Positions 7,276 to 55,988 of a stretch of 64,000 nt of DNA are shown here, one piece after another (positions within the stretch are counted from its first letter, which is position 1; each line of letters begins with the position of its first letter). Below the pieces are notes generated by a model. It did no database searches and had not been told where the DNA came from. It saw nothing but the letters and a program-made list of their open reading frames with translations. Both the position numbers and the translations under genes were made by a program. Origin of the DNA: Bacillus sp. FJAT-22090 (lineage in GTDB: Bacteria > Bacillota > Bacilli > Bacillales_A > Planococcaceae); the NCBI RefSeq assembly GCF_001278755.1, contig NZ_CP012601.1, positions 3,596,154-3,660,153 of the forward strand, written 5' to 3'.

Positions 7276-7995
7276 ATGGGTCGTAAGTGGAACAATATTA
7301 AAGAAAAGAAAGCTTCCAAAGATGCTAATACTAGTCGTATTTATGCTAAATTTGGTCGTGAAATATATGTAGCTGCAAGACAAGGTGAACCAGATCCTAC
7401 TTCTAACCAAGCATTAAAAGTAGTTTTAGAACGTGCAAAAACATACAGTGTGCCTAAGCATATTATTGATAAAGCAATTGAAAAAGCAAAAGGTGGATCT
7501 GAAGAGAGCTATGACGAGCTTCGTTATGAAGGCTTTGGTCCAAGTGGTTCAATGGTTATCGTTGACGCTCTAACAAATAACGTGAATCGTACTGCATCTG
7601 ATGTACGTGCTGCATTTGGGAAAAATGGCGGTAATATGGGTGTGAGTGGTTCGGTTGCTTATATGTTTGATGCAACTGCAGTTATCGGTTTAGAAGGAAA
7701 AACAGCTGATGAAGTACTAGAATTATTAATGGAAGCGGACGTAGATGCCCGCGACATTATCGAAGAAGAGGATTCTGTCATTGTTTATGCAGAACCAGAT
7801 CAATTCCATGCTGTACAAGAAGCATTAAGAGAAGCTGGCGTATCGGAATTTACGGTAGCGGAGTTAACAATGCTTGCTCAAAACGACATCTCCTTAGATG
7901 CTGATGCACAAGCTCAATTTGAAAAAATGATTGATGCTTTGGAAGATCTAGAAGACGTGCAGCAAGTTTACCATAACGTAGACTTAGGAGAATAA
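7276..7995 (+). CDS. yeeI: YebC family protein, YeeI/YebC2 type
   Basis: 239 residues, full length and very close to Bacillus subtilis YeeI. The family opening [20 protein letters not shown], the [20 protein letters not shown] core and the SGSVAYMF strand are all present. Long annotated as a transcription regulator; more recent work on this subfamily (YebC2) indicates a translation factor that relieves ribosome stalling at proline runs, so the older label should be read with care. Its own promoter is visible upstream and a strong terminator downstream. The phased repeat array at 8076 begins just after that terminator. Confidence 0.95.
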
Positions 7996-8005
7996 TATAG
8001 TTTAA

Positions 8006-8052
8006 AAGGTTGTCTCATACGTAGTTTAACTACGTGGAGGCAGCTTTTTTTT
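8006..8052 (+). terminator. Terminator of yeeI
   Basis: Inner stem ACGTAGTT/AACTACGT extended by wobble-rich GTTGTCTC/GAGGCAGC and ended by eight T residues. Confidence 0.85.
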
Positions 8053-8075: not shown

Positions 8076-8180
8076 TTTAGTTGGAAAAAATGCTGCTTTA
8101 GTTGGAAACTAAGTAAGTTTAGTTGTAAAAATGAAGCACTTAGTTGGAATTATGAGAGTTTTAGTTGGAATTTACTTCTC
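8076..8180. repeat. Phased direct repeat array: five 11-nt cores every 21 bp
   Basis: The core TTTAGTTGGAA occurs at 8076, 8097, 8118 (TTTAGTTGTAA), 8139 (CTTAGTTGGAA) and 8160, i.e. at exactly 21-bp steps, separated by unrelated 10-nt spacers. Flanking 21-bp positions (8055, 8181) do not match. Because 21 bp is two helical turns, all cores face the same side of the DNA. A reading frame through it would give FSWK-type heptads but overlaps the terminator and has no ribosome site, so I treat it as a DNA or RNA element rather than a gene. It resembles the array at 30603 in design but not in core sequence. Confidence 0.9.
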
Positions 8181-12127: not shown

Positions 12128-12414
12128 AAAATCCTCTCCTTTTGGAGGAATAAAAAAATCCCTCCGATATTAAACGGAAGGATTACATACTGACCATTAA
12201 ATGAATATGCAAAAACCACTACAAAGCGTTAGCGTATTGTAGAGAATTATTTGCAGTAATTTTGAAAAATGGGCAGACTAATCCTATTTCCGGTTTCGTA
12301 AAGTTTTATTTTGTTACTGCGCAAATATATCGCAGAAAAAACTTCTACTGAGAAATAAGATTAAAACTTCATCGGCCACCCATCGTCCCTTCAAAATTTG
12401 ATGTCTTCATTATA
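12128..12414 (-). promoter_or_regulatory. Antibiotic-responsive leader of the VmlR-like gene
   Basis: A minus-strand TATAAT (12409-12414) would give a leader of about 275 nt. Near its 5' end lie two minute overlapping frames: ATG GGT GGC CGA TGA (12383-12369) after GAAGGG, and ATG AAG TTT TAA (12372-12361). A CTGCG/CGCAG hairpin and a CTACAA/TTGTAG hairpin follow. The segment CGGAAATAGGATTA (12292-12279) can pair with the 5' arm of the attenuator, TAATCCTTCCG (12185-12175), leaving only a 3-nt bulge, so it is a ready-made antiterminator. Stalling of a ribosome in the leader would be expected to choose between the two folds. Confidence 0.75.
12152..12185 (-). terminator. Leader terminator (attenuator) of the ABC-F gene
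   Basis: On the minus strand AATCCTTCCG pairs with CGGAGGGATT and is followed by seven T residues, ending about 25 nt before the ABC-F start codon. It lies inside the leader of a gene transcribed the same way, so it acts as an attenuator rather than an end-of-gene signal. Confidence 0.85.
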
Positions 12415-29362: not shown

Positions 29363-29455
29363 ATATTTATAAAAACGGATGCAAATAAATTTTCATAATG
29401 TTACATTTTAATTGAATAGTTTGTAAGAATCGAAAAAACAAAGTGGGGTAAAATG

Positions 29456-30592
29456 ATGAAATTTGAAATGATGCGACACCGTTTATTAGATGGATTGAAT
29501 GATGTAATGAAAGCAGTTAGTTCTAAAACAACCATTCCAATTTTAACGGGGATAAAATTGGAACTCACCGAAGAGGGATTACACCTAACAGGTAGTGATT
29601 CAGATGTTACAATTCAAACCTTTATAAAGTCGGAAGAAGATGGGGACCAAGTAATTCGCGTTATAGAAGAAGGTTCCATTGTTTTGCAAGCACGAATGTT
29701 CAATGAAATTGTAAGGAAGCTACCAACTAGTGATGTAGAAATAGAAGTGAAAGAAAATAATCATACGCATATAAGCTCTGGTAAGTCCGAGTTTCATATA
29801 ATCGGACTAGACCCATCTGACTATCCATTGCTCCCAGAGATTCAAGATGATTCACAGTTTGAAATTGGATCTGATTTATTAAAATCTCTTGTGCGTGAAA
29901 CGGTATTTGCAGTATCCGCATCTGAAAGTCGTCCTGTATTAACAGGGGTCCACTGGCAAATTAAAGATGGAGAACTTACTTGTGTAGCTACAGATAGTCA
30001 TCGTCTAGCTCGCCGTAAACTCATTTTAGAGCAGCCGCCAGAAGGAGAATTTAATGTAGTAATTCCGGGGAAAAGCTTAAATGAGTTAAGCAAAATTATT
30101 GGAGACTCCGCTCAACCTGTTTATATCGTAATGACGAGCCAACAAGTATTATTTAAAACGAAAGATGTGTTATTCTACTCCCGTTTACTAGAAGGAAACT
30201 ATCCAGATACCTCTCGATTAATTCCGATAGAGTACAAAACGATTCTTACCTTAAATAGCAAGGCTTTATATCAATCGATAGACCGAGCATCTTTATTGGC
30301 ACGTGAAGAACGGAATAACATTGTTCGCTTATCTTCATTGGAAGGAAAAAAAGTAGAAGTATCCTCTAGTTCTCCAGAGATTGGAAACGTCGAAGAGGAA
30401 ATTGAATTATCAACAATGGAAGGGGAAGACATAAAAATTTCATTTAGTGCAAAATACATGATGGATGCTTTAAAAGCTTTTGATGGACAAGATATAGTCA
30501 TCCAACTAACTGGTGCCATGCGTCCATTTATTATTAACTCAGCTCAAGATGATACTCTATTACAATTAATTGTCCCAGTTCGTACATATTGA
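29456..30592 (+). CDS. dnaN: DNA polymerase III beta subunit (sliding clamp), second-locus copy
   Basis: 378 residues, the normal length of a three-domain clamp. Hallmarks: DVMKAVSSKTTIPILTGIKL, LTGSDSDVTIQTFI, VSASESRPVLTGVHW, ATDSHRLARRK and the C-terminal MRPFIINSAQDDTLLQLIVP with VRTY. I start at the second ATG (29456), matching the family N-terminus. The canonical dnaN sits beside dnaA; here the neighbours are a DinB gene and MarR/GNAT genes, so this is probably an additional clamp. All domains look intact, so it could load on DNA; whether it works in repair, as its surroundings suggest, is inference. Confidence 0.92.
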   Translation: MKFEMMRHRLLDGLNDVMKAVSSKTTIPILTGIKLELTEEGLHLTGSDSDVTIQTFIKSEEDGDQVIRVIEEGSIVLQARMFNEIVRKLPTSDVEIEVKENNHTHISSGKSEFHIIGLDPSDYPLLPEIQDDSQFEIGSDLLKSLVRETVFAVSASESRPVLTGVHWQIKDGELTCVATDSHRLARRKLILEQPPEGEFNVVIPGKSLNELSKIIGDSAQPVYIVMTSQQVLFKTKDVLFYSRLLEGNYPDTSRLIPIEYKTILTLNSKALYQSIDRASLLAREERNNIVRLSSLEGKKVEVSSSSPEIGNVEEEIELSTMEGEDIKISFSAKYMMDALKAFDGQDIVIQLTGAMRPFIINSAQDDTLLQLIVPVRTY

Positions 30593-30602
30593 TTTTAGAT
30601 AT

Positions 30603-30682
30603 GAACGGATAAATAAATTTCTGACCGAATAAACAGAAATGTGACCGGATAAAAACTTTTCTGTCCAGATAATAAAAATGAT
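30603..30682. repeat. Phased direct repeat array: four 10-nt cores every 20 bp
   Basis: Cores GAACGGATAA (30603), GACCGAATAA (30623), GACCGGATAA (30643) and GTCCAGATAA (30663) are spaced by exactly 20 bp, with unrelated AT-rich 10-nt spacers. A fifth fragment GACCGAG at 30691 is out of phase. The array starts 10 bp after dnaN and ends before the next terminator. Same plan as the 21-bp array at 8076: a conserved half-unit and a free half-unit over about two helical turns. It keeps no reading frame. Confidence 0.88.
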
Positions 30683-30760
30683 TATATTCAGACCGAGCCC
30701 ATCTGTTTTTCCTCTTGGAAGGGGGCAATGTCTGAAACCAAATAGCTGTTTTTAAAATAA

Positions 30761-30798
30761 AAGAAGAGTCCCGTTATCTAACAATACGGGCTCTTCTT
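30761..30798. terminator. Bidirectional terminator
   Basis: AAGAAGAG-t-CCCGT / ACGGGCTCTTCTT hairpin between dnaN and the convergent MarR gene. Confidence 0.85.
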
Positions 30799-30857
30799 TA
30801 ACTGTATAGGGATATTCTAATCTTTTATTACCGTAGAGAAAAATGTTCCGATGTTAT

Positions 30858-55687: not shown

Positions 55688-55988
55688 AAAAAAATCCCAC
55701 CCCCAAGACAAATGTCTTAGGGACGAGATTTAGAAAGTCGTGGTACCACCCTAGTTTATTAATATGTCACCATATTAATCTTAATCGGTACGGCAAATAA
55801 ACTACGATTTGCGTATACCTGAGCCCGATAACGGGAGCTCCCGTCACACCATCTCCTATTAGCAGGGTCCTTTGTGATGCTCCGAGACTTGGTTCAATAA
55901 ATAATTCTTACTCCTTTTCAGCACCCGGAGCTCTCTTCAAAAGAATTGATCGATCTACTCTTCTCTTCATCGCATATAAATTTTACCA
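55688..55988 (-). promoter_or_regulatory. T-box riboswitch
   Basis: On the minus strand: Stem I base GATG/CATC, AGTAGA loop-E element, AGAGAGCTCCGGGTGCTGAAAA distal region in part, then the T-box AGGGTGGTACCACG (55752-55739) and a 16-bp wobble-containing terminator (55729-55694) with seven T residues. The T-box AGGG can instead pair with CCCT of the terminator's 5' arm. The bulge UGGU expects a tRNA with discriminator A. The specifier strand reads GAACCAAG (55895-55888); CCA (Pro), CAA (Gln) or ACC (Thr) are possible by eye and I cannot choose safely. Confidence 0.88.

Follow-up and report, generated by a model that had tools for sequence, protein, structure and literature searches.

Phased intergenic arrays with a two-turn step and changing cores in Psychrobacillus genomes

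The chromosome of Bacillus sp. FJAT-22090 (hereafter G000; genus Psychrobacillus) carries many intergenic rows in which a core of about ten letters recurs at a step of 20 or 21 bp, and related genomes have rows that keep this spacing but use other cores, such that the conserved quantity is the step, two turns of B-DNA, while the core word varies between and within genomes. The repeats known from bacterial intergenic regions are mostly classed as REP hairpins, as mobile elements with inverted repeats or as CRISPR. A constant step with a changing word points to assembly on one face of the DNA, and we hold with moderate confidence that these arrays are rows of double-stranded-DNA sites for cooperatively binding proteins, with one core per two helical turns. 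Phased arrays of this kind give a handle for finding their proteins by co-variation, and the position of one family after terminators makes the insulation of transcription units directly testable.

The window analysed here, a stretch of 64,000 nucleotides within the 4.21-Mb chromosome (G000:C1:3596154-3660153), holds two such arrays, one of family A and one of family B (Table 1). The original prediction of four cores at exact 20-bp steps after dnaN describes a real structure: the family B units start at 30602 (TGAACGGATAAATAAATTTC), 30622 (TGACCGAATAAACAGAAATG), 30642 (TGACCGGATAAAAACTTTTC) and 30662 (TGTCCAGATAATAAAAATGA), and the pair pattern GACCGGATAA-N10-GACCGGATAA, with up to 3 mismatches, has 3 matches in the window against 0.01 expected, a number that 0 of 100 shuffles reach. 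The adjacency to dnaN, with the first unit 10 nt past the stop codon, likewise stands, whereas the 'conserved gene' needs correcting, as it is a second, diverged dnaN, 70% identical to a copy at genome position 3189670 that is probably the origin copy. Close relatives of this second copy (76–82% identical) occur in 5 other Psychrobacillus genomes, one of which (G010) has two; the array is missing from the 420 nt after all 6 of these sister genes. Tandem Repeats Finder (score 30) lists part of the family A array as its only entry for the two, so the dnaN array is too diverged for that tool. A home-made terminator scan (hairpin of −9 kcal/mol or below plus a T-run; calls approximate) calls no terminator upstream of the dnaN array, and the inverted repeat about 80 bp 3′ of it, read by eye and possibly a two-way terminator, is not among its calls.

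Table 1 Features of the window (positions are those of the whole stretch)
Feature	Position	Strand	Remarks
yebC/pmpR gene	7276..7995	+	NCBIfam NF009044 and TIGR01033, above cut-off; family A array downstream
Intrinsic terminator hairpin after yebC	8004..8049	+	−24.4 kcal/mol; T-run from 8048
Family A array, five 21-bp units, core TTTAGTTGGAA	8076..8180	+	Begins 28 nt after T-run start
Bacillus sRNA ncr1575	12152-12404	-	Rfam match above gathering score
Second dnaN gene (DNA polymerase III beta subunit)	29453..30592	+	NCBIfam TIGR00663, 384.5 bits, above cut-off; array directly downstream
Family B array, four 20-bp units, core TGACCGGATAA, variants TGAACGGATAA, TGACCGAATAA, TGTCCAGATAA	30602..30681	+	
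Inverted repeat AAAGAAGAGTCCCG...CGGGCTCTTCTTT	30760..30799	.	By-eye reading
T-box leader	55716-55979	-	Rfam match above gathering score

Across the whole of G000 the family B pair pattern (up to 3 mismatches) has 29 matches, family A (core TTAGTTGGAA, 21-bp step) has 38 and family C (core CCATCCGATTAT, 21-bp step) has 21, with none for any of the reversed patterns, so that the suspicion that such periodicity might be no commoner than in shuffled DNA does not hold for these three cores. A period-aware scan that presupposes no core (periods 14–45, four copies, nine columns) finds 13 places at threshold 25 in 464 kb of G000, 12 with a period of 20 or 21 and one with 42, against none in Markov-shuffled DNA; the density of arrays in these stretches is not representative because they were chosen partly around known arrays. 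At a looser threshold, with periods 19–22, the same stretches yield 25 arrays, one of them AT-rich and doubtful, and the additional cores TTRGTCTCGG (D), AATTGGTTGCTC (E) and TCGCTACATT (F). Further cores at 20–21 bp come from other Psychrobacillus, namely TGAACTTGCG (G) in P. insolitus, GATTGTAGTAAA (H) in G012, TATCTCAGAAAA in G010, TTTACTTGC in G007 and AAGTGTTGCG (K), and from two other genera of the same family (GGTCGCTAA and TTCTTCTACCGAAA in G019, GTTGGAACTC in G024). Markov-shuffled controls gave 0 at every threshold reported for the scans of G000 and its relatives. The predicted class of elements with a fixed spacing and a diversifying core is thereby borne out, and some of the cores may be mutually related (GTTGGAA, GTTGCG, GGTTGCT). 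A 42-bp tandem repeat lies at G000:C1 ~3716333 (L137 from 1333), inside overlapping ORFs of 87–101 aa on both strands.

Neighbouring family A units are offset by 21 bp in 147 of 149 cases, those of family B by 20 bp in 52 and 21 bp in 9 of 67, and those of family C by 21 bp in 10 and 42 bp in 2 of 12, while family K is looser (21 bp in 132, 18 bp in 19 and 20 bp in 16 of 175). A profile of family A built on 212 units (G000, G005 and G009, the last two with common array positions) gives 1.2–2.0 bits at core positions 2–11 and 0.01–0.23 bits at spacer positions 16–21. The spacers had been called free, which is right for the array at 8076 and only partly so for the one after dnaN: family B spacers are A/T-rich at positions 11–19, with T at position 19 in 90% of the 42 own units, and their AA/TT state at positions 17–18 alternates between neighbouring units more often than under permutation within arrays (32 versus 22.6, p 0.0002, 27 arrays), an effect not significant in family A (p 0.63). 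We rejected an A-tract or curvature model, as the bias against TpA beside the core is weak, uneven and not general: TpA versus ApT counts are 72 versus 102 in family A (steps 12–15) and 80 versus 144 in family B (steps 11–19), against an intergenic background of 1.04 ApT per TpA, the bias is strong only at A 13–14 and B 16–18 and reversed at A 12 and 15, and an A/T tract is missing from cores D and G. By eye, the last unit of an array is often a variant (GTTGTAAT in G005 family A arrays; TGTCCAC or TGACCGTTC in family B arrays), and short inverted stretches (for example AGGATATTTTATCC or ATCCATTTTTATGGA) follow the last family A unit; in two K arrays of G001 (C11:515251-515612 and C11:577046-577484) a longer repeat of roughly 102 bp is superimposed on the 21-bp step.

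Orthologous arrays also separate core from spacer. Over nine aligned pairs, core identity is 383/399 (96%) and spacer identity 181/248 (73%; Fisher p 4e-17), the core figure being biased upward because the loci are those with a recognized array in both species (9 of 16 G009 arrays). At 27% neutral divergence, a 50-site array with at most 3 changes has a probability of 0.00017. Flank identity at the same loci is 1024/1308 upstream and 1105/1470 downstream; the pair L208/L238, which lacks homology upstream, lowers the flank figure. The conservation of cores at orthologous sites favours selection on the core. Lone cores occur at chance level in the 464 kb, with 2 of 36 exact family A cores outside arrays, both coding (Markov control 4), and 2 of 19 for family B (Markov control 1).

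Pair searches for A, B and K in 61 genomes, 19 of them Psychrobacillus, at up to 2 mismatches trace a patchy distribution. Family A is found in 12 genomes (11 of the 19 Psychrobacillus, plus G028 of another genus) and family B in 7 (6 Psychrobacillus, two with a single pair, plus one isolated match in another family). The family K core, read from one locus and then searched, occurs in 5, with 70, 61 and 62 pairs in its three source genomes (G001, G012 and G018), 11 in a fourth Psychrobacillus (G013) and two isolated matches in G033 of another genus; reversed-pattern controls for B, A and K gave 0, 1 and 1 matches in total. In G013 every one of the 11 K pairs has AAATGTTGCG, whereas the three source genomes mostly have AAGTGTTGCG; the K core of G013 has thus changed in concert.

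Outside Psychrobacillus, 20–21 bp arrays were found in 2 of 17 genomes of other genera of the family (mostly 20–60 kb sampled each, two under 5 kb) and in none of 4 sampled genomes of other families. The scan of these other genera and families gave 15 hits: 10 fall inside ORFs and have assorted periods, and the 5 outside ORFs have a period of 21 (three), 24 (one) or 12 (one). A rule of 'only period 20 or 21' is thus true of non-coding hits alone, and there not strictly. An earlier scan of relatives also gave 15 hits, taken without a coding score, some of which are repeats of other periods that look coding. In that scan 40 kb of G003 and 60 kb of G007 contain no 20–21 bp array, although a separate 3-kb locus of G007 does. 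A pattern scan of a wider collection returned 47 stretches, 20 of them Psychrobacillus (P. insolitus, P. faecigallinarum and P. vulpis); we left out the other 27 as members, although in three of them the match coincides with 20-bp tandem repeats and another contains a perfect tandem repeat of 20 bp. Carriage by phage was rejected, since exact pair patterns in viral contigs numbered 0 for A, 4 for K, 1 for G and 0 for B, and none of the five is such an array.

A given site can hold different cores in different species, in keeping with a fixed step and a diversifying core. In the 400 nt downstream of yebC, compared by eye across 19 species, G000, G013 and G016 have family A arrays and G011 and G017 short ones, with apparent decayed traces in G005 and G015. 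At the same site G010 (L171) has an array of core TATCTCAGAAAA, with a step of roughly 21 bp, that ends in an in-phase A-like unit, TTTAGTTGTAAT, a mixed-core array where other species hold family A. The roughly 330 nt that follow eno carry family A in G000, G005 and G013, one A unit in G009 and family K in G001, G012 and G018, with no array seen by eye in the remaining 12 species. The eno gene itself is split in G016 (C13:171701-172989) by an internal stop and a frame change, perhaps an assembly error. Upstream of the gene for a 23S rRNA methyltransferase (RlmD model), G012, G015 and G018, which have no family A pairs at 2 mismatches, retain single A-like units; these decayed units mark old sites in species without family A. 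Whole arrays have also been duplicated in G000, where a 21-bp C array and, after it, a 20-bp B array form a composite present at both 2114100 and 3811267, 1.7 Mb apart (L130:9068-9342 and L122:1257-1510; 77% identical over 275 bp), and where the array cluster at 3874190/3881083 is a further case. In 4 of the 9 orthologous pairs the two arrays differ by gaps of 21, 42, 19 and 21 columns, or approximately whole units.

Such turnover is also what the main rival to binding-site arrays would produce. Here the arrays would be selfish intergenic repeats that spread and expand through an enzyme which recognizes the core and copies or transposes the repeat, and the placement at gene 3′ ends would reflect tolerance or target choice (terminator T-runs). 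The patchy distribution, with family A in one isolated genome of another genus, the duplication of whole arrays, the K arrays of up to 26 units and the missing dnaN array at the 6 sister loci all suit this account. It would, however, require conversion tracts shorter than 10 nt to keep orthologous cores so much more alike than their spacers, and no linked transposase was seen by eye among the genes of two clusters. The Y1_Tnp domain (PF01797) is above cut-off in 18 of the 19 Psychrobacillus genomes and absent from G002, which has 19 B pairs, and no 20–21 bp array lies in 20 stretches (10–12 kb) around 20 Y1_Tnp genes. We therefore regard selfish repeats as a serious contender that is nonetheless unlikely. 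The Y1_Tnp gene at G000:C1:2289524-2289862 (73.7 bits for NCBIfam REP_Tyr_transpos, whose cut-off is 80 bits) and its orthologues have the same downstream neighbour in many species and mostly one copy per genome; it looks like a domesticated REP-type transposase, and no hairpin REPs were found here.

Family A has a marked position relative to genes and terminators, as judged with the terminator scan above and with gene calls from a codon-usage score trained on these sequences, both approximate. A same-strand terminator T-run lies within 45 nt upstream in 26 of 45 distinct arrays, with a mode at 17–19 nt, a placement met in 200 of 1,800 random positions downstream of a co-directional gene; an opposite-strand T-run lies within 45 nt past the last core in 15 of 45 (mode near 20), and 34 of 45 have one or the other. 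By neighbouring genes, co-directional family A arrays outnumber opposite ones by 20 to 6 (p 0.009), a further 18 are convergent and none divergent, so that 0 of 44 occupy divergent gaps against 48 of 184 in the background (107 co-oriented, 29 convergent, 48 divergent; p 2e-5), and the upstream gene is co-directional with the array in 38 of 44. Family B is less consistent (T-run upstream in 8, downstream in 9 and on either side in 15 of 27; 10 co-directional, 6 opposite, 9 convergent and 1 divergent, with p 0.45, not significant). In family K only 7 of 20 arrays have a terminator no more than 60 nt away on one side, the upstream gene is co-directional in 12 of 20 and 3 are divergent, which rules out a universal terminator rule; a role at terminators therefore cannot be the function of every family.

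In the binding-site reading, a sequence-specific protein would recognize the non-palindromic core of 10–12 bp, and a step of 20–21 bp would align all copies along one helical face and so allow cooperative binding between neighbours, the array rather than the lone core being the working unit. Several families in one genome would presumably each have their own binder, and core and binder would change together, so that cores differ between species while the step stays. We infer the binding protein, its cooperativity and its action as a barrier; rows of protein sites agree with cores and steps that are constrained while spacers drift, with the scarcity of lone cores, the concerted change of a core and the decay of units where a family is missing. 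Weighing against the reading are terminator and orientation rules that fail to generalize (K, B and the window's own B array), the looser steps of K, and the whole-array duplication equally expected of a selfish repeat. The genes around two clusters (L125 and L195), inspected by eye over their first 60 residues, look ordinary, with no candidate binder or linked trans-acting gene among them.

RNA polymerase halts about 14 nt before a bound block, and intrinsic termination occurs a few nucleotides into the U-tract. Family A, sitting mostly just past intrinsic terminators and at gene 3′ ends, would most likely stop or insulate read-through transcription, and a protein bound 17–19 nt past the start of the T-run would let the RNA 3′ end rest 3–5 nt into the U-tract. 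Carried further, this suggests a hitherto undescribed chromosomal system of the Planococcaceae in which diversifying DNA-binding proteins co-evolve with phased arrays, several dialects per species, and in which at least family A provides protein-assisted fail-safe termination or insulation, its first bound protein holding RNA polymerase with the 3′ end in the U-tract; in this full form we offer the proposal tentatively and think it rather doubtful.

The same co-directional placement of family A, the start of the dnaN array just past a stop codon and the AA/TT alternation of B spacers could instead mean that the arrays act in transcripts, as hairpins in 3′ untranslated regions or as sites for RNA-binding proteins. 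Yet 48 A and 27 B arrays show no excess folding over spacer-swapped controls on either strand (mean z −0.16 to 0.16), which speaks for DNA and led us to reject an RNA hairpin model; moreover, most family A arrays lie after the terminator and the step matches the DNA helix, making an RNA element improbable. CsrA-like GGA sites were likewise rejected, as the cores TTRGTCTCGG, TCGCTACATT and TGAACTTGCG have no GGA and there is no folding signal. DUS and USS persist through biased uptake of DNA; the cores resemble them as short, non-palindromic words that differ between species and lie close to gene ends, but with lone cores at chance level, no over-representation of single copies and strict 20–21 bp arrays, uptake-type sequences are a very remote prospect. 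Ordinary decaying tandem repeats or chance periodicity, although whole-unit differences between orthologues resemble slippage, are scarcely credible given a core common to many arrays with unlike spacers and the empty reversed-pattern controls in G000 and the empty Markov-shuffled controls.

Among known systems, iterons are direct repeats of plasmid origins with protein sites about two helical turns apart, at one locus beside a rep gene; the phasing is alike, whereas here many chromosomal arrays stand beside ordinary genes, the two window arrays adjoining dnaN and yebC, and no adjacent replication initiator gene was seen by eye at two clusters. CRISPR shares the constant repeat, constant distance and unlike spacers, but its repeats measure 24–48 bp in the available portion of one account (PMC3733652), while our many small, scattered arrays have cores (10–12 bp) and spacers of only about 10 bp, and orthologous spacers are alignable and point-mutated rather than acquired. 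REPs, as that same portion describes them, are palindromes of 20–40 bp with terminal GTAG or CGTC (PMC3733652); the REP/RAYT system resembles ours in being small, extragenic, species-specific and present as several families per genome, and differs in its palindromic folding unit, in place of which we find short, directly repeated cores with no folding signal. STAR elements of staphylococci are likewise intergenic arrays of a short core with spacers, variable unit number, loci that differ between species and unknown function. The available part of their description (PMC3532100) gives a GC-rich 14-bp core, T(G/A/T)TGTTG(G/T)GGCCC(C/A), with at least 40 bp between cores, spacers often nearly identical within one locus, a single core family and no two-turn step; our arrays have shorter cores (10–12 bp) of another sequence, steps of 21 bp almost throughout family A and of 20–21 bp in 61 of 67 family B cases, unlike spacers and several families per genome. 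The titles and abstracts listed by searches of open-licence literature contained no report of 20–21 bp phased arrays in these bacteria. As far as those partial descriptions go, STAR elements and REPs are the nearest published relatives, and we place the present arrays among the interspersed intergenic direct repeats, with a real chance that they form a separate system; they look like an undescribed kind of protein-docking array.
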